Origin: Bacteroidaceae bacterium
GTDB taxonomy: Bacteria > Bacteroidota > Bacteroidia > Bacteroidales > Bacteroidaceae
Reading direction: 5' to 3'
NCBI GenBank assembly: GCA_017483605.1
Contig: JAFUWG010000021.1
Location: 1-48,319, forward strand
Length of the DNA: 48,319 nucleotides
The notes under the pieces were generated by a model that worked only from the letters and a program-made list of their open reading frames with translations, was not told where the DNA came from and did no database searches. The translations under genes and the position numbers were made by a program. Of the stretch, positions 4,500 to 47,664 are shown piece after piece (the stretch's first letter is position 1; each line of letters starts with the position of its first letter).

Positions 4500-4532
4500 T
4501 TTGGAAGTTTCAGCAAAAATGCACTACCTTTG
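4500..4532 (+). promoter_or_regulatory. Promoter of the ABC/permease/GntR operon with a long leader
   Basis: TTTG (4500-4503), 21 bases, then TACCTTTG (4525-4532) fit the Bacteroidota consensus. The transcript would start near 4540 and carry a leader of roughly 310 bases, which includes the three-palindrome element at 4648-4741. Apart from that element I see nothing else recognisable between 4279 and 4854. Confidence 0.65.
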
Positions 4533-4647
4533 CAGTGTATTATTAAAGTAGTACACTAATAACATCGAATCCAATGACTCCACTACCCTGCCAGACAGGC
4601 ACGAACTGCCTCAACCGAATCAAACGGGAAAACCCACAAGAGGTTCC

Positions 4648-4741
4648 CTCGACACCTCAAAACCGACCACGACGTGATCGGTTCATCGACCACGACGTGG
4701 TCGGCGCATCGACTACGACGTGGTCGATTTTGAGGCTACGG
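4648..4741. repeat. 94-bp three-palindrome element, copy D (CGACCACGACGTGGTCG core)
   Basis: The left frame CTCGACACCTCAAAA (4648-4662) and right frame TTTTGAGGCTACGG (4728-4741) enclose three palindromes. They are CCGACCACGACGTGATCGG (4663-4681), CGACCACGACGTGGTCG (4687-4703, perfect 8+1+8) and CGACTACGACGTGGTCG (4710-4726). The frame is almost identical to that of the element at 37721-37814 and the total length is the same, but the core is unrelated. It lies in the predicted 5' leader of the ABC operon. Confidence 0.9.
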
Positions 4742-4854: not shown

Positions 4855-5595
4855 ATGCTAAAGATTGAAAACGTAACGTTTGGCTACAACGCCATCCACC
4901 ACGTGCTGGAAAACTTCTCGCTCCAGTACGACGAGCCGGGCATCTACGGCCTCTTGGGCAAGAACGGCACCGGCAAGTCCACCCTGCTCTACCTCATCAT
5001 GGGACTGCTCCGTCCCCGTCAGGGTCAAATCACGTTCGACGGCTGCGACACTCAACTGCGTCAGCCCGAGGCTCTCAGGGAGATGTTCATCGTGCCCGAG
5101 GAGTACAACCTGCCCTCCATCACCCTGCCCGAGTATGTGAAGGTGCTCAAGCCCTTCTACCCCAACTTCGACGAGCAACTGATGGTGCGTCTGCTCACCG
5201 TGTTCGAGATGCTCGACGTCAACGGAGCCACGCCGGATGAGAACGGAATCCCAAAGGTCAACTTGGGTTCGCTGTCGATGGGACAGAAAAAGAAAATCTA
5301 TATGTGCATCGCCCTCGCCGCACGCACCAAACTGCTGCTGATGGACGAGCCGACCAACGGGCTCGACATCCCCAGCAAGAGCCAGTTCCGCAAGGTGGTG
5401 GCACAGGGCATGAGGGACGACCAGACGGTCATCATCTCCACCCATCAGGTGCGAGACGTGGAGACGCTGCTCGACCACGTGACCATCATCGAGCAAAACG
5501 CCGTCTTGCTCAACGAGAAAATGAACATGGAAGAGCCCGTCAACCTGGAAGAACTCTTCATCAAGGCATTAACCAAAGCAGAAATAGGAGGATAA
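4855..5595 (+). CDS. ABC transporter ATP-binding protein
   Basis: A 246-residue ABC ATPase. Walker A is GLLGKNGTGKST (about residues 33-44), the signature is the atypical LSMGQKKK (rather than LSGGQ), Walker B is LLLMDEPTNGLD, and the switch histidine is in IISTHQ. The sequence resembles the YtrB/BcrA-type drug or stress exporters rather than nutrient importers. The next gene, 4 bases downstream, encodes its membrane partner, followed by a YtrA-type GntR regulator, so the three probably form a self-regulated export unit. The substrate is unknown. Confidence 0.92.
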   Translation: MLKIENVTFGYNAIHHVLENFSLQYDEPGIYGLLGKNGTGKSTLLYLIMGLLRPRQGQITFDGCDTQLRQPEALREMFIVPEEYNLPSITLPEYVKVLKPFYPNFDEQLMVRLLTVFEMLDVNGATPDENGIPKVNLGSLSMGQKKKIYMCIALAARTKLLLMDEPTNGLDIPSKSQFRKVVAQGMRDDQTVIISTHQVRDVETLLDHVTIIEQNAVLLNEKMNMEEPVNLEELFIKALTKAEIGG

Positions 5596-14103: not shown

Positions 14104-14190
14104 ATGATTCAGAAAAGTTGGAAAGAAAGATATAGGGAGTTTCGGGAATGGCAGGTGCGGCAGAATTGTTTAAGTTGTATAAGGAAATGA
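14104..14190 (+). pseudogene. Truncated duplicate of the 5' end of the DUF3667 gene
   Basis: The frame reads MIQKSWKERYREFREWQVR and then diverges, stopping after 28 codons. The 51 bases at 14111-14161 are identical to 14993-15043 inside the intact DUF3667 gene, in the same reading frame. This copy retains a good promoter and an ATG but has lost the rest of the gene. It is best read as the severed original 5' end, with the sequence between the copies inserted afterwards. Confidence 0.75.
14111..14161 (+). repeat. 51-bp direct repeat, copy 1
   Basis: Exactly matches 14993-15043; the flanking bases differ on both sides. The two copies bracket about 830 bp of A+T-richer DNA containing the kinase-like gene. 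Confidence 0.9.
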
Positions 14191-14988: not shown

Positions 14989-15849
14989 ATGAAGAAAAGT
15001 TGGAAAGAAAGATATAGGGAGTTTCGGGAATGGCAGGTGCGGCCGTTTGAGGTGGCGGCGATGTCGGAAGAGGAGCATGATTGCCCCACATGCCACACCC
15101 TTTACAAAGGGAATTTCTGCCCCCGTTGTGGACAGTCGGCACGAATTGGAAGGTATTCGTTCACGACGGCACTGCTGAACTTTCTCGACGTGTGGGGCAT
15201 CGGAAACCGCAGCATGTTCCGCACGTTGCGTGACCTCATCTTGCGTCCTGGATACATGATACGCGACTACCTGAGCGGTATGCAGATGGCGTACTTTCCT
15301 CCGTTCCAGATGCTGTTTCTGCTGACCACGCTGTCGTTCATCATCCTTTATGGCGTGAACATTCGCGGCATCACCTACGAGGACTTACGACAAGAGGCAC
15401 TCACGCAGGTGGAACAAATAGGTGGAGAAGACCCCGTCAGCACGGAAGCAGGGGCTGCGGCGTTCAACTGGATTATGGACTTTACGGAGCAATACCCCAA
15501 TCTTGTCTCCTTGTTATACATCGGCATCTTCTCGCTCTTCCTCTTCCCTTTTTATCGGCACAACAAGGTCATCCCCAACATGCGGTATTCCGAGTTTATG
15601 GTGGCAACCATCTACATTGCCAACATGATTTCCCTCTACGAACTGGTCATGATGTTCTTCTGCTGCCCTGTCACCATCACCAGCATCATCGCAAGCCTTA
15701 CTGCCCTCATCCCCCTCAAACAACTCTCGGGCTTTTCATGGTTTCGCACTATCCTCTCCATCGTCGGTGCCTTTCTCGCCTTGATGGCTGCCTACATCAT
15801 CCTTGTCGGCATCGTCCTCCTATTCCTGTTCTTTAAGCCTACCTTATAA
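14989..15849 (+). CDS. DUF3667 domain-containing membrane protein
   Basis: A 286-residue protein. Near the N-terminus (about residues 29-44) it has a zinc-ribbon-like CPTCHTLYKGNFCPRCGQ, followed by the DUF3667 signature FTTALLNFLDVWGIGNRSMF and LRDLILRPGYMIRDYLSG. Four or five TM helices follow (FQMLFLLTTLSFIILYGV, LVSLLYIGIFSLFLFPFY, VATIYIANMISLYELVMMFF, TILSIVGAFLALMAAYIILVGIVLLFLFF). The function is unknown. Its first 17 or so codons are within the second copy of the 51-bp repeat. The ATG at 14989 lacks a clear -7 box, so expression may depend on readthrough from the kinase-like gene or on a weak TATCTTTT near 14911. Confidence 0.85.
   Translation: MKKSWKERYREFREWQVRPFEVAAMSEEEHDCPTCHTLYKGNFCPRCGQSARIGRYSFTTALLNFLDVWGIGNRSMFRTLRDLILRPGYMIRDYLSGMQMAYFPPFQMLFLLTTLSFIILYGVNIRGITYEDLRQEALTQVEQIGGEDPVSTEAGAAAFNWIMDFTEQYPNLVSLLYIGIFSLFLFPFYRHNKVIPNMRYSEFMVATIYIANMISLYELVMMFFCCPVTITSIIASLTALIPLKQLSGFSWFRTILSIVGAFLALMAAYIILVGIVLLFLFFKPTL
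14993..15043 (+). repeat. 51-bp direct repeat, copy 2
   Basis: Identical to 14111-14161. It encodes residues 2-18 of the intact DUF3667 protein. Confidence 0.9.
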
Positions 15850-27959: not shown

Positions 27960-27965
27960 CAACGT

Positions 27966-28033
27966 GTTTTTCATAGTATTAGATTTAAGGTTAACAAAGG
28001 TTCGGGTTACGGCGGTAACCCATTTTTTATTTT
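27966..28033 (+). ncRNA. Predicted small RNA, possibly a Bacteroidales-1-like motif
   Basis: Between a consensus promoter and a terminator lies a short non-coding transcript of about 68 bases. Its body contains TCATAGTATTAGATTTAAGG followed by TTAACAAAGG. It ends in the hairpin GGGTTAC (28004-28010), loop GGCG, GTAACCC (28015-28021), then ATTTTTTATTTT. A promoter-body-terminator design defines the published Bacteroidales-1 RNA motif, and the TATTAGATTTAAGGTTAAC core looks like one that recurs in Bacteroidales genomes. Assignment to that named family is from memory and needs a covariance search. Confidence 0.6.
28004..28033 (+). terminator. Terminator of the small RNA
   Basis: A 7-bp stem, GGGTTAC/GTAACCC, with a 4-base loop and an A-interrupted T run. 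Confidence 0.8.
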
Positions 28034-28191: not shown

Positions 28192-28286
28192 CTCGATACC
28201 TCAAAAGTGGTCTGAGTCACACCGCCTCGGTGGTCTGAGTCACACCACTCGGGCGGTGTGACTCAGACCACTTTTGGGGTGTCGAG
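28192..28286. repeat. Three-palindrome element, copy A (GTGGTCTGAGTCACACCGCC core)
   Basis: The frame CTCGATACCTCAAAA (28192-28206) and TTTTGGGGTGTCGAG (28272-28286) encloses three units: GTGGTCTGAGTCACACCGCC, GTGGTCTGAGTCACACCAC and the inverse GGCGGTGTGACTCAGACCAC. The outer arms, including units 1 and 3, make a 35-bp inverted repeat with only two mismatches, both of G.U type. It lies between the small RNA region and the stop of the metal-efflux permease gene. Confidence 0.92.
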
Positions 28287-28326: not shown

Positions 28327-29649
28327 CTACTCGTTTCGTTCCAAATCGAAGCCGATGCTCTCGACGGCAGCCTTCACTTCGTCGTCGCTGATGTCGTCGC
28401 CAACAACGATGGTTTGACCCGTTGGCAGGTCCACCGTCACCGACTCCACACCTTTCACGCTGCGAATGGCATTCTCCACATTCACCTTGCAGTGGTTGCA
28501 GTTCATGCCTTTCACGATGTAAGAATGGGTGGCACAGGCATCGTCGGCACAATGGTCATGTTCGTGACAGTGGCAATGCCCTTCGTGGTCGTGCCCACAA
28601 TGGCACGCTGACTTGTGCATCAGCCGCATCCGCAGGACATTGAGCAGCAAGAGCCCCAAAACAACCGTGCAGGTCCACTCGAACCAACCTGCCACGTCGT
28701 GACAGCAGGCATGGGTGTTGCTCAGGTGCTGAGTGAACCACTCTCGTGGCAACAATTGGTCTATCACCACGCCAAAGCACACCGAACCGAGAATGATGGC
28801 AGCGAGGTAGAGCACCAAGGTTTTCCGTCCCAACACCTTATTGACCACCAGAATGGAGGCGACGTTGCAGGCAGGGCCCGCCATCAGCATCACCAGGGCG
28901 GCACCCGGAGTCAGCCCCTTCATCATCAGCGCCACGGCGATGGGGATGCTGCCTGTGGCACAGATGTACATGGGCACGCTGATGCAGAGCACCAAGAGCA
29001 TACTGAGGAAGGTGTTATCTTTGAAGACGGCGAAGAAGGAATCGGGCACCAGCACCGTAATCAGCCCTGCTACGACGAGACCCACCACGAGCCACTTGCC
29101 GATGTCTTCCATCATCTCGACAAAACCGAACTTGAGGGCTTCAAGGCAACGCTGTCCAAAGGTCAGGTTCTTCTGCTCCGACCAGGCTTTTGCGGCATCG
29201 TGCGAGTGAGCAGCCTCTTCCGTTAAAGAAGGCTCCTCTTTTTCGCCCAGATTGACGAACGTGCCGCCAATGAGTGCCGTAAAGAATGCCGCAATGGGTC
29301 TTATCACCGCAAAGGGCAAGCCCATGAGCGAGTAGGTGGCGAAGATGCTATCGACTCCCGTCTGCGGAGTGGCAATCAGGAACGAAACGACCGCCCCCTT
29401 GCTGGCTCCCTCACGCTTCAGCGACATCGCCGTCGGAATCACGCCACACGAGCACAACGGCAGTGGCACACCGAAGATGGCGGCGTTCACCACCGAACGC
29501 ACCGTGTTTCCACTCAGATACTTTGCATACCATCCGTCAGGAATGAACGCATGCATCACTCCTGCCAGCAGGAAGCCTAACAAGAGGTAGGGTGACATCT
29601 CGTTGATGATGCCCAACACGGCTTCCAAAACGTTCCAAACATATTCCAT
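28327..29649 (-). CDS. SO_0444-type Cu/Zn efflux permease with C-terminal HMA domain
   Basis: A 440-residue membrane protein. About eight TM helices make up two permease halves, with PLPLCSCGVIPTAMSL and SVPMYICATGSIPIAVALMM as the paired signature loops (the first carries CSCG). It continues MAGPACNVASILV. A His/Cys-rich cytoplasmic linker follows (HKSACHCGHDHEGHCHCHEH). The C-terminus is a heavy-metal-associated domain with YIVKGMNCNHCKVNVENAIR (CxxC). This matches the SO_0444/SO_0445 Cu/Zn efflux family. It is a single gene, with a likely -7 box at 29678-29685. Confidence 0.9.
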   Translation of the reverse strand: MEYVWNVLEAVLGIINEMSPYLLLGFLLAGVMHAFIPDGWYAKYLSGNTVRSVVNAAIFGVPLPLCSCGVIPTAMSLKREGASKGAVVSFLIATPQTGVDSIFATYSLMGLPFAVIRPIAAFFTALIGGTFVNLGEKEEPSLTEEAAHSHDAAKAWSEQKNLTFGQRCLEALKFGFVEMMEDIGKWLVVGLVVAGLITVLVPDSFFAVFKDNTFLSMLLVLCISVPMYICATGSIPIAVALMMKGLTPGAALVMLMAGPACNVASILVVNKVLGRKTLVLYLAAIILGSVCFGVVIDQLLPREWFTQHLSNTHACCHDVAGWFEWTCTVVLGLLLLNVLRMRLMHKSACHCGHDHEGHCHCHEHDHCADDACATHSYIVKGMNCNHCKVNVENAIRSVKGVESVTVDLPTGQTIVVGDDISDDEVKAAVESIGFDLERNE

Positions 29650-34585: not shown

Positions 34586-34692
34586 TGTAGTGAATTTTTA
34601 TAGTTATGCCTACTCTTTTTCAAGGATTTTCGGCTTTCTCCTATATCCTACAGTGCTGCAGAATACAGCATTCGAGTCTGACCTCACTTTTG

Positions 34693-36652: not shown

Positions 36653-37645
36653 ATGAAAGAAATCGTTTTGAGTGGCATTCGCCCTACGGGAAACCTCCAC
36701 CTCGGAAACTATTACGGAGCAGTGCAGAACTTTGTGAAGATGCAGGATGATTACAACTGCTACTACTTCATTGCCGACTGGCACTCGCTCACCACACACC
36801 CCAAGCCCGAAGACATCCAGCAGTCGGCTCGCACCATCTTGGCCGAGTATCTGGCTTGCGGCATCGACCCCGAAAAATCAACCATCTACATACAGAGTGA
36901 CGTGCCCGAGACCATCGAGTTGTACCTCTATCTGAACATGAACTGCTACCTCGGCGAGTTGGAGCGTGTGACCACCTTCAAGGAGAAGGCACGCAAGCAG
37001 CCCAACAACGTGAACGCCGGATTGCTCACCTACCCCACGCTGATGGCCGCCGACATCTTGCAGCATCGTGCCGCCAAGGTGCCCGTGGGCAAAGACCAGG
37101 AGCAGAACATGGAGATGGCACGCAAGTGTGCCCGTCGCTTCAACAACATCTACGGCGTGGAGTTTTTCCCCGAGCCGCAGAACTTCTACTTTGGCGACCA
37201 TGCCATCAAGATACCCGGACTCGACGGCAGTGGCAAGATGGGCAAGTCGGAAGGCAACTGCATCTACCTCTACGAAGACGCCAAGAGCATCGAGAAGAAG
37301 GTGAAGAAGGCGGTGACCGATTCAGGTCCTACGGAGCCCAATCAGGAGAAGCCCGAGGTCATCCAGAACCTTTTCACGCTGATGGAAATTGCCTCCAGCA
37401 AGGAGACCTACGACTACTTCAACGAGAAGTGGAACGACATGACCATCCGCTACGGCGACCTGAAGAAGCAACTGGCTGAGGACATCGTGAACACCCTCGC
37501 CCCCATCCGCGAACGCATTCTCGAATACCAGAACAACCAGGAACTGCTCGACAAGGTGGCGAAACTCGGTGCCGAAAAGGCACGCGAAAGTGCGGCTGCC
37601 ACACTCCGCGAGGTGAGAAAGATTATCGGATTCAGAGTTTACTAA
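36653..37645 (+). CDS. trpS: Tryptophan--tRNA ligase
   Basis: A 330-residue class I aminoacyl-tRNA synthetase charging tRNA-Trp. The N-terminal RPTGNLHLGNYYGAV holds the HIGH-type motif (HLGN). YFIADWHSLTTHP and LTYPTLMAADIL are tryptophanyl-specific. KMGKSEGN is the KMSKS-type loop, preceded by KIPGLDGSG. Length and motifs are normal. It is monocistronic, ending in an intrinsic terminator at 37670. Confidence 0.97.
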   Translation: MKEIVLSGIRPTGNLHLGNYYGAVQNFVKMQDDYNCYYFIADWHSLTTHPKPEDIQQSARTILAEYLACGIDPEKSTIYIQSDVPETIELYLYLNMNCYLGELERVTTFKEKARKQPNNVNAGLLTYPTLMAADILQHRAAKVPVGKDQEQNMEMARKCARRFNNIYGVEFFPEPQNFYFGDHAIKIPGLDGSGKMGKSEGNCIYLYEDAKSIEKKVKKAVTDSGPTEPNQEKPEVIQNLFTLMEIASSKETYDYFNEKWNDMTIRYGDLKKQLAEDIVNTLAPIRERILEYQNNQELLDKVAKLGAEKARESAAATLREVRKIIGFRVY

Positions 37646-37669
37646 CCCCTGCAAAGAACCCATAAGGAG

Positions 37670-37705
37670 AGAGAGGAAGTGCCCCCATCGGCATTTCCTC
37701 TCTTT
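37670..37705 (+). terminator. Terminator of trpS
   Basis: AGAGAGGAAGTGCC (37670-37683) pairs with GGCATTTCCTCTCT (37690-37703), one G.U pair, loop of 6, followed by TT. Confidence 0.85.
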
Positions 37706-37720
37706 GTCATTTTAGGTGTG

Positions 37721-37814
37721 CTCGACACCTCAAAAGTGGTCTGAGTCACACCGCCTCGGTGGTCTGAGTCACACCACTTGGGCGGTGTGACTCAGACCAC
37801 TTTTGAGGCTTCGG
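37721..37814. repeat. 94-bp three-palindrome element, copy B
   Basis: The frame CTCGACACCTCAAAA ... TTTTGAGGCTTCGG encloses GTGGTCTGAGTCACACCGCC, GGTGGTCTGAGTCACACCAC and GGCGGTGTGACTCAGACCAC. The core matches copy A at nearly every base; the frame matches copy D (4648), with one difference in the right 14 bases. It lies between the trpS terminator and the stop of the response regulator gene. Confidence 0.92.
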
Positions 37815-37827
37815 GCAGAGGGTGAGT

Positions 37828-38550
37828 TCAGTCTTTCGTGATGAGTTTGTAGCCTATGCCGCGCACGTTGATGATGCGGATGTCGGGGTCGCGAGAGAGT
37901 TTGTGGCGAAGTTTGGAAATGAAGACATGGAGGCTGCGGGTGTTGAAGAAGGAGTCGTCGCCCCAGAGTTCGAGGAGGATGTCGCGGATGGGCACCACGT
38001 CACCTCGGTGCTGGCAGAGCCGTTTCAGGATTTCAGCCTCTCGATGGGAAAGCGAGAAGACCTGCGGGGTGAAGTCAGCATCGGAGAAAAGGAGTTGCTG
38101 GGTGAGGGTGTCGAGTTGGTAGTTGCCGAGGATGAAGCGGTGCTCCTCCTTCTTGTCGGGGGCGGGAGCGATGCAGGCACGTCCGACGAGGGCTTTGAGA
38201 CGAATCATCAGTTCCTGCATGCCAAAGGGTTTGCGAAGGTAGTCGTTGGCTCCGAGTTCAAAACCATGCACCACGTCTTCGGTGGCAGTACGTGCGGTGA
38301 GGAAGAGGACGGGAATGTGTGGGTCGTTCTGACGAAGACGTTTCACCATGTCGAAACCATCCATGCGGGGCATCATCACGTCGGCAACGATGATGTCGGG
38401 ATGGAGTGTGTGGTACATCCGCAAACCTTCTTCGCCGTCGTGAGCAATGTGAATGATGAAGCCTTGCTGATCGAGCGTGTCTTTGATGATGAGGGCGAGG
38501 GTGGCTTCATCCTCAACCAAGAGTACCGTTATGTTTTCGTTTGGAGTCAT
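37828..38550 (-). CDS. Response regulator transcription factor, OmpR/PhoB family
   Basis: A 240-residue regulator when started at the ATG at 38550 (MTPNENITVLLVED); earlier in-frame codons overlap the kinase gene. The receiver domain has VLLVEDEAT, the phospho-acceptor Asp in PDIIVADVMMPRMDGFD, the switch threonine in VLFLTARTA and K in DYLRKPF. The C-terminal winged helix shows LSHREAEILKRLCQ, ILLELWGDDSFF and VFISKLRHKLSRDP, ending RGIGYKLI. It follows the kinase gene by 5 bases. The outer-membrane barrel gene on the other side of the kinase is a plausible target. Confidence 0.94.
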   Translation of the reverse strand: MTPNENITVLLVEDEATLALIIKDTLDQQGFIIHIAHDGEEGLRMYHTLHPDIIVADVMMPRMDGFDMVKRLRQNDPHIPVLFLTARTATEDVVHGFELGANDYLRKPFGMQELMIRLKALVGRACIAPAPDKKEEHRFILGNYQLDTLTQQLLFSDADFTPQVFSLSHREAEILKRLCQHRGDVVPIRDILLELWGDDSFFNTRSLHVFISKLRHKLSRDPDIRIINVRGIGYKLITKD

Positions 38551-38555
38551 AGGAA

Positions 38556-40211
38556 TTATAGGAAAGAGATGAGCATGCCGCCCATGAGCCATGCCAATAG
38601 GTTGAGCGTGTGGGCGTTAGGTTTGGGAAAATGAAGGATGAACGTGCTGCCCTCCCCTGGCTTACTATCGACAGAAACAGAGCCTCGGTGCAACCGCATC
38701 ATGGTCGCCACGTAATAGAGCCCGAGTCCATGCCCTTTCACGTTGTGGAGGTTGCCGTTGGGCACACGATAAAACTTTTCAAAGATGTGGCGTTGCTGCT
38801 CGAGGGTGATGCCGATGCCACGGTCGCTGACAGAGATGAACGTTGTCCCATCGCGAGTGATGCCGCCACAAACGTTGATGTCAGCCTCTGCCACCGAGTA
38901 TTTCACCGCATTATCCAGCAGATTGCCTAGCATCTGCAAGAGCAAGGTGCGGTCGGCGGTCAGCATCAGGTTGTCGGGCTGAATGGCGGTGGCGATATGG
39001 AGCGGCTTTTCGTTCTTCATCTTCAGAGTCTCCACGGCAGCAGCCACAACCTCTTTCACATTCAGCACTTCCAGTTTCAGCGTAAAGTTTTTCTGCCGTT
39101 CTGCACTCATCGACAGAATCTGCTCCACCATACCACCCAATCGTTGCAGTTGCTCCTGAGAGACACGAAGGTATTTTTCCCGTGTCGCCGCGTCCTCTCC
39201 TTGATGGAAATGCAACAGGGCATCGTTGGCAGCGTATGCCACAGCGATGGGGGTCTTCAGTTCGTGGGTGATGTTATGGGTGAAGTCGCTCTTCATCTCG
39301 TCGAGTGTCTTCTGTTTCAGCAGCGTGTGGATGAGATACCAGAACGTAAAGACTAGAACAATCAACGTGAACAGGGAACTGGCGATGATGCCTTTCAGCG
39401 ACTTCAACACGCTCACAGCGACTGGCTCCATCCACAGGCGATAGAGGTCGTGCTGCGACGAAGTGTAGTGGTAATCGTAATGCACGGCTTTCTCGGTCGG
39501 TTGATAGTGAGGCGTGGTAATCATGTTAAGTGTATCTATTCCCAGTGTGTCCGTCTCATCAACCGCATTCACATGGAAATGAAATTGCTCCAGCCGATGT
39601 GATGTGTCGATGTGATGCTCTTGCAGCCTCAACGTCAGGAGGCTGTCGAACACCGTCACGTCAGGTTCGCTCAACAGGTCGATGCCGTTGTGGATGCCCT
39701 GCTGCATCATCTGCGTCAAGTCGCGGACAGACTTCTGGTCGTCTACCACGGCGGAGAAAAGCCCGTTCCCACCACTGACCAATGCCTTGTTTTTCTCGGC
39801 TTCTTCTGTGTCGTATGAATGCACGTCCACCCGCATGTGCCGTTTGCCAGCCACGCTGTCACGCCGAATGGTGATGGTGTCCGTCAGTTCCTCGTCCTTC
39901 ATGATGATGGCGTCGTAGCCCTTCTGACGGACGGCAGTGAAAGAGCCAGCGTACACCATCTGATTGTCCACGTCCATCTTGTAGCCCGTGGCATAACTGA
40001 CCTCACCATGCGTTTGTGTCTTTTGCGAGAGTTTGGCGATGCGGAGCACCATCTCGTTATAGTCAGAGATTCGAAGTGCCTCCACAATGCTCTCCTCCAT
40101 CTCCTGCTTGCGGGTCTCGTAGAGATTGTGAAGGCAGTAAAGTTGGAAGAGGAAGATGGCTGCAAGGGCGGTGCAGACAAGAATGGTGATGGTTTTGAGT
40201 GGCAGTTTCAT
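38556..40211 (-). CDS. Sensor histidine kinase
   Basis: A 551-residue membrane kinase. TM1 (ITILVCTALAAIFLFQLYCL) is followed by a periplasmic sensor of about 240 residues with no recognised fold and TM2 (IIASSLFTLIVLVFTFWYL). The HisKA H-box is FTHNITHELKTPIAVAYAAN. The HATPase has NLLDNAVKYS, SVSDRGIGITLEQQRHIFEKFYR and GHGLGLYYVATMMRLHRG. It ends in a short hydrophobic tail (LNLLAWLMGGMLISFL). It pairs with the response regulator immediately downstream. The gene is divergent from the outer-membrane protein gene, with -7 boxes at 40216 and 40333. Confidence 0.93.
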   Translation of the reverse strand: MKLPLKTITILVCTALAAIFLFQLYCLHNLYETRKQEMEESIVEALRISDYNEMVLRIAKLSQKTQTHGEVSYATGYKMDVDNQMVYAGSFTAVRQKGYDAIIMKDEELTDTITIRRDSVAGKRHMRVDVHSYDTEEAEKNKALVSGGNGLFSAVVDDQKSVRDLTQMMQQGIHNGIDLLSEPDVTVFDSLLTLRLQEHHIDTSHRLEQFHFHVNAVDETDTLGIDTLNMITTPHYQPTEKAVHYDYHYTSSQHDLYRLWMEPVAVSVLKSLKGIIASSLFTLIVLVFTFWYLIHTLLKQKTLDEMKSDFTHNITHELKTPIAVAYAANDALLHFHQGEDAATREKYLRVSQEQLQRLGGMVEQILSMSAERQKNFTLKLEVLNVKEVVAAAVETLKMKNEKPLHIATAIQPDNLMLTADRTLLLQMLGNLLDNAVKYSVAEADINVCGGITRDGTTFISVSDRGIGITLEQQRHIFEKFYRVPNGNLHNVKGHGLGLYYVATMMRLHRGSVSVDSKPGEGSTFILHFPKPNAHTLNLLAWLMGGMLISFL

Positions 40212-47386: not shown

Positions 47387-47480
47387 CTCGATACCTCTAA
47401 AGTGGTCTGAGTCACACCGCCCAAGTGGTGTGACTCAGACCGCCGAGGCGGTGTGACTCAGACCACTTTTGGGGTCATTT
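47387..47480. repeat. Three-palindrome element, copy C (centre unit inverted)
   Basis: The left frame CTCGATACCTCTAAA (47387-47401) and right TTTTGGGGTC (47467-47476) enclose GTGGTCTGAGTCACACCGCC, GTGGTGTGACTCAGACCGCC and GGCGGTGTGACTCAGACCAC. The middle unit with its linkers is the reverse complement of the one in copy B, with one difference. Beyond it (47481-47664) only a GGTGGCTGC/GCAGCCACC hairpin near 47530-47560 is notable; no gene is supported. Confidence 0.9.
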
Positions 47481-47664
47481 CGCCTCCTCCGCCGAGGTTG
47501 CTCCTGCATCCCTCCCGACAACAACGGTGGCTGCCACTCGTCGCGAGCAGCAGCCACCAGCATTGACATTATTAATATCTATCAGATTATTTCTTGATGA
47601 ATTGGCTTCGCCCATTTATCGCCGCGGCTCGGCATAGCAGGAAAACGAATTTTCCGCTCTGCAC

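Follow-up and report, generated by a model that had tools for sequence, protein, structure and literature searches.

Two copies of a short palindromic element in this stretch of DNA from a gut bacterium have the same ends and the same length and enclose interiors that bear no resemblance to each other, and the question is what kind of element keeps its frame while its core is replaced. The window, that is, the whole stretch of 48,319 nucleotides analyzed here, contained four copies of the element, three of them with core A. Their features are listed below.

4648..4741, forward strand: copy D, the element under study (frame plus core D), 94 bases
4648..4662, forward strand: left frame of copy D, CTCGACACCTCAAAA
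4664..4680, forward strand: first unit of core D, CGACCACGACGTGATCG
4687..4703, forward strand: second unit of core D, CGACCACGACGTGGTCG, 23 bp on from the first
4710..4726, forward strand: third unit of core D, CGACTACGACGTGGTCG, 23 bp on from the second
4728..4741, forward strand: right frame of copy D, TTTTGAGGCTACGG
28192..28286, strand unassigned: core A copy with near-complete inverted ends, flanked on one side by a reverse-strand gene for an ArsP_1-type permease (end at 28327) and on the other by a terminator-like hairpin at 28159-28127
37668..37705, forward strand: terminator-like hairpin adjoining copy B, separate from the element
37721..37814, strand unassigned: copy B, core A, 94 bases, between the convergent genes 36653-37645 (tRNA synthetase class I) and 37828-38592 (response regulator)
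47387..47481, strand unassigned: core A copy, right end deviating from the frame

As the first-pass annotation had claimed, copies D and B were of equal length (94 bases) and shared the frame CTCGACACCTCAAAA...TTTTGAGGCT[AT]CGG, the left frames agreeing at 15 of 15 positions and the right frames at 13 of 14. Its further claim that the two cores are unrelated was borne out by a local similarity score of 10 between cores A and D, compared with a mean of 8.0 for shuffled sequences, 157 of 1000 of which reached 10. Both cores consisted of three dyad-symmetric units with centers 23 bp apart, the element carrying GGTNTGANTCANACC three times in core A and CGACCACGNCGTGGTCG three times in core D. The ends of the copy at 28192, CTCGATACCTCAAAA and TTTTGGGGTGTCGAG, were inverted-complementary at 13 of 15 positions. 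An Rfam scan of the window gave two matches at the gathering score, none of them on an element: FopS sRNA (RF04319) at 27964-28033 and DUF805b RNA (RF02914) at 34607-34643. The window also held an exact 51-bp direct repeat (14111-14161 and 14993-15043, starts 882 bp apart).

Neither half of the frame was striking on its own. With up to three mismatches allowed, the left half-frame had 6 matches in the window (1.58 expected) and the right half-frame had 8 (5.54 expected). The two-sided exact frame CACC...GAGG occurred at 10 places in the genome to which the window belongs (G000; 3.06 Mb, completeness 81.5 percent), and the reversed-pattern control at 0. The steadiest part of the arms was the inner octamer pair CCTCAAAA/TTTTGAGG, the outer part being looser and species-dependent; exact CCTCAAAA-N50..80-TTTTGAGG was found at 15 places in G000, enclosing core A at 12 of them and core D at 3. 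A profile was then built from the 54 arms of 27 core A elements of G000 and applied to 30 arms of 15 core D elements, using solely elements in which both unit 1 and unit 3 were recognized. The results showed that 25 of the 30 D arms scored higher than 99.9 percent of random 37-mers. The consensus arms of A and D agreed at 25 of 37 positions, where 37 bases is the span measured and not an established true end. For the D' arms of genomes G010 and G011, 3 of 10 exceeded the 99.9th percentile of an A-arm profile and 5 of 10 the 99th. One 268-kb contig of G011 carried 10 A and 4 D' elements with related frames, the shared part being mostly the inner octamer.

The core families were counted in G000 and across the genus. 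There were 277 matches in G000 to the core A unit GGTNTGANTCANACC and 39 matches, with at most one mismatch, to the core D unit CGACCACGNCGTGGTCG, the latter making 18 elements. One A' trio (GGTNAGANTCTNACC, spacing 24) lay on contig C12 between CCTCGGAA and TTTTGAGG, with one frame end exact and the other altered. The exact inner frame was present in 18 of the 45 genomes of the genus; the frame match in G005 and one of those in G036 were without dyads. Among the matches listed, the cores found in the genus were A (spacing 23 or 24), A', D' (CGAYNTCGNCGANRTCG), and E (CGRWGTCNNNGACWYCG), and the A', D', and E cores of the relatives mostly had three dyads 23 or 24 bp apart within the frame. More than one core type was seen among the matches listed in G003, G013, G017, G032, G062, and G064. 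Both a GGT-type and a CGA-type core occurred in nine genomes (G000, G003, G010, G011, G013, G017, G032, G062, and G064), and the remaining genomes had, among the matches listed, the GGT type only. The description of the element as cassette-like therefore stands in the sense of several unrelated cores in one frame, within a genome and across the genus, with near-constant geometry. This was the outcome that the first-pass annotation had named as support for its cassette model; the opposite outcome, a frame with the A core only, did not arise, the frame also enclosing D and the cores of the genus.

Cores A and A' differ by a symmetric change in both half-sites (GGTNTGA/TCANACC in A, GGTNAGA/TCTNACC in A'), and by unit counts they were nearly mutually exclusive among genomes. 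A' dominated in G035 (A/A' units 2/81), G018 (1/19), G017 (0/13), G025 (0/11), and G003 (3/15); A dominated in G014 (89/0), G036 (84/0), and G000 (277/3); and G007 (46/11), G064 (16/6), and G002 (7/3) were mixed. Within elements, the recognized units were of a single type in 56 of 56 cases, one row being double-labeled where two unit patterns overlap, and no mixed-core element occurred among the 56 elements typed by unit. Letter-identical cores recurred at 2 to 4 places in unrelated sites (four sets for A, one for D). The identical cores and the single-type elements point to copying of whole elements.

Two other repeats of G000 were noted. An AT-rich palindrome family (TCTTAAAACTAAACTTAGATTTTATAAAAT...), several of its units about 21 bp apart by eye, had 7 copies in 396 kb, at L219:17982, L220:11006, L221:1595, L221:17938, L222:13526, L223:8942, and L231:16275. 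The other, at L227:14439, was a trio of the CGACATGCCCCACGTCG kind with units 23 bp apart; it lay between AAAA and TTTT, lacked the CCTC/GAGG frame, and resembled the trio found beside the permease gene of G010 and G011 (see below).

What the unrelated cores had in common was their geometry. Units 1 and 3 were inverted to each other in 83 of 100 copies from five core families, their centers being complementary in 41 of 55 A, 10 of 12 A', 15 of 16 D, 7 of 7 D', and 10 of 10 E copies. Orientation was judged from the central base of the unit, which has no effect on unit symmetry; the count covers copies with units 1 and 3 on the family pattern, and the pattern for a core F had no matches. The sole D exception was copy D at 4648 itself. 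Copies within a family share descent, so that p values for orientation overstate independence, and the firm statement is that all five families lean one way. The inverted outer units allow the element to form a single long hairpin that has unit 2 at its apex, and the folds predicted for the copies in the window (four copies, six strands; z -7.1 to -13.9) agree with this form. As evidence against a simple pairing constraint, no inter-arm compensation was detected at the three free unit positions of core A in G000, where 48 of 81 matched, compared with a permuted mean of 54.8, and all 5000 permutations reached or exceeded 48 of 81; compensation elsewhere was not significant (A 18/30, permuted 16.8; A' 14/15, permuted 12.4). 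The number of units also deviated: one copy in G032 had a single unit, and copies in G000 (L339) and G064 (L348) had two. In the last of these (L348, about 440-530), two D'-type units had a doubled CCTCAAAACCTCAAAA frame on either side.

We consider it probable, though some way from certain, that these copies represent a genus-restricted, non-coding, dispersed fold-back element of the REP/MITE-like kind, with one frame, several core families, and a shared activity acting on all of them. The two inverted arms, innermost CCTCAAAA/TTTTGAGG, would be the common part of the element, and the core, usually three dyad-symmetric units of 15-17 bp set 23 or 24 bp apart, would fold back around unit 2. 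On the simplest account the element is non-autonomous, and one trans-acting activity may copy or insert anything that bears the frame, tolerating many versions of the core so long as its geometry is preserved. The regularity of the dyads hints that a dimeric protein also reads the element; the core units are candidate sites for a dimeric DNA-binding factor, the specificity of which may have shifted between lineages (A/A' and D/D'/E). Because no mixed-core element was seen, new core families would arise rarely and then spread as whole copies.

The shared arms and unrelated interiors, as well as the nine genomes holding both a GGT-type and a CGA-type core, would also fit two or more MITE families served by one transposase through shared terminal inverted repeats, the geometry being ancestral and the cores never swapped. 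However, cores A and D retain no residual similarity, which is hard to square with common core descent, and neither a parent transposase nor a duplication was found by the Y1_Tnp search and at the sites compared; we regard this explanation as rather unlikely. The element might be a modular mobile palindrome whose ends serve as a fixed, sequence-specific address and whose core is an exchangeable specificity cassette, a proposal that we put forward tentatively. The core would then change wholly between lineages while the three dyads stay in register with the outer units inverted, and the symmetric A/A' change would record co-evolution with a dimeric protein of altered half-site.

The genomic position of the element was analyzed in a sample of 444 kb, comprising the window and 396 kb of G000 on contigs picked irrespective of element content. 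Genes were taken as simple open reading frames of at least 100 aa, and 18 of 19 sampled elements could be placed between two of them (L225:131, which had no left gene, was dropped). Convergent gaps held 7 of the 18 elements, whereas of the 91 gaps that measured 150 bp or more 15 were convergent (binomial p, 0.005 on gap length and 0.02 on gap count); the right neighbor of L225:16900, scored as tandem here, was convergent in another reading. Tandem gaps held 10 of 18, and 9 of these 10 elements were closer to the 3' end. Avoidance of divergent gaps (1 of 18, p 0.21-0.27) was not significant alone. Element copies prefer gene 3' ends.

This preference and the very stable predicted folds are what would be expected of RNA structures at 3' ends, either bidirectional terminators or mRNA-protecting hairpins, with selection on the transcript preserving the frame and fold and the core sequence free to vary. 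Against this, the copies at 28192 and 37721 each have a separate terminator-like hairpin next to them, and these two copies, which were the ones scanned, did not themselves score as terminator-like (GC hairpin followed by a T run). In addition, 277 near-identical units suggest copying rather than selection alone, and copy D does not adjoin the 3' end of a gene. We therefore judge an RNA role to be an improbable explanation of the element.

Copy D is the one element in a divergent gap and stops 113 bases upstream of the start codon (ATG) of the gene at 4855, which encodes an ABC transporter ATPase. Upstream of it, at window positions 4500-4540, a promoter-like stretch was noted by eye, TTTG followed by TACCTTTG, which resembles promoters of the Bacteroidales type. 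Given this stretch, copy D could be part of the transporter gene's 5' leader. Insertion into the loop of terminator-like hairpins was also considered; some arms, for instance GGGTGTGTCAAA...TTTGACACACCC, hinted at it, as did the plain hairpin of G013. The corresponding motif pattern had 4 matches beside elements in the 444 kb and 3 elsewhere, the latter without a matching arm within 60 bases, and insertion into such loops stays an idea.

Orthologous slots were compared by eye. The ArsP_1-type permease gene had an orthologue in 39 of the 45 genomes, and for 30 the sequence beyond the gene was inspected. Core A followed the gene in G000 (spacing 23) and in G003 and G014 (spacing 24), G010 and G011 had a further trio (CGATGTGTCCCACATCG and variants), G032 had a single E-type unit, and G017, G025, and G068 had an unrelated TTTGGCTTGAATACA array. 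G024 and G061 carried other repeats, G013 a plain hairpin and then T, and in the rest none was recognized. Arrays of the TTTGGCTTGAATACAACTTTC type, in forward and inverted copies, were observed behind the permease gene at L268, L271, and L261 (G017, G025, and G068). In a second slot, behind another gene, G000 had a D element and G064 an A element about 100 bp away. From the permease comparison it is evident that one slot may be occupied more than once by such repeats, which fits in-place swapping and separate insertion alike, the two being indistinguishable there because the flanking DNA was not alignable by eye. No alignable empty site or readable target-site duplication was found among the window copies, the permease slot, and two contigs of G010 and G011; the last two shared no DNA, hence no empty sites there.

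REP and REPIN elements with their RAYT are among the nearest systems for comparison (available text of PMC3116915 and PMC2817692), and the palindromes, high copy number, and extragenic position of the present element would suit REPs mobilized by such a Y1 tyrosine transposase. Weak Y1_Tnp matches (E 1e-6 to 6e-4) were indeed found in six frame genomes (G003, G005, G017, G025, G036, and G064). However, strong matches (E below 1e-18) occurred in 7 of the 45 genomes, of which G000 alone has the frame. No Y1_Tnp match at all was present in 11 of the 18 genomes with the frame, among them G014, G062, G032, G035, and G068. The only Y1_Tnp gene found in G000 (L078) was flanked by a different repeat of the AGCCCTGAAGGGGCG type, possibly the REPs belonging to that gene. 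The strong matches thus do not track the family, and a RAYT as mobilizer was rejected as very improbable. No autonomous parent or transposase was found in searches that covered the Y1_Tnp family and frame patterns with gaps shorter than a gene-sized interior.

The core A array was absent from all 392 other genomes of the order, including 5 from the same family. Spread on viruses was considered and dropped, as the A array with spacing 23 or 24 had 0 matches in viral contigs; the frame had 48 matches there, of which 5 passed a fold or palindrome filter, and no three-dyad core was found among those 5. A scan of 84,980 species with a stricter frame pattern (gap 65-67), from which records near the own genome may have been left out, returned 88 distinct strings. 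A filter of the fold/palindrome type was passed by 31, and 23 of these, at 18 loci, had a dyad core. The 18 loci were all from eight Bacteroidales MAGs (RUG418, UBA4359, RUG14560, RGIG5573, RGIG4941, S16M_St_61, SRR14411267_bin.9, and MAG021). Judged by these sequence comparisons, the element family looks confined to the genus.

The element resembles several known systems in part. Like REP/REPIN sequences, as described in the available text of PMC3733652, it is a short, dispersed, extragenic palindrome of high copy number; unlike them, it usually has three units and lacks a family-tracking RAYT. No REP-type GTAG/CGTC tag was seen by eye at the palindrome foot, the ends carrying the symmetric CCTCAAAA/TTTTGAGG; CGTC is present at the center of core D units and not at the foot. 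It shares with bacterial MITEs a small size, non-coding sequence, inverted ends, and an interior free to vary (PMC2229807, in the portion available), and over the 37-base arm span used, the arms are terminal inverted repeats in the MITE sense, but its core retains the three-dyad geometry and no duplication or parent insertion sequence was found. BrickBuilt of Porphyromonas gingivalis is likewise a MITE-like intergenic repeat of Bacteroidales with a 23-nt unit; however, going by the available part of PMC4596501, its unit AGAYCATARTATCCTCTCRTRTG is unrelated by eye, its unit number varies, and its ends resemble ISPg elements. By the same comparison by eye, the element does not contain the AGAYCATARTATCCTCTCRTRTG tandem array that defines BrickBuilt.

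Common ends with differing interiors are familiar from MITEs. The statement in the first-pass annotation that this is not how ordinary REP families diverge was accordingly too strong, since similar traits are found in MITEs and in nested REP dimers, the latter being reported as inserted inside conserved palindromic sequences (available text of PMC3733652). What goes beyond the known MITE and REP traits is the retained geometry of three dyads with the outer units inverted. Dispersed palindromes, shared ends, and REPs nested in palindromes are known kinds, as far as the available portions of PMC3733652 and PMC2229807 go. No description of a constant frame with three-dyad geometry and several unrelated cores was found in the literature search, and a text search with six core strings gave no matches; as far as the literature searched extends, the combination of a constant frame, near-constant three-dyad geometry, and unrelated cores is new.

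The element family offers a natural series for studying the requirements for the spread of a bacterial repeat, in that the ends and geometry have stayed near-constant through several replacements of the core. Should a single enzyme act on every core, recognition would be by the ends together with the fold. Should each core instead have a separate partner, the split between A and A' would provide a route to that partner among the proteins that differ between A and A' genomes.
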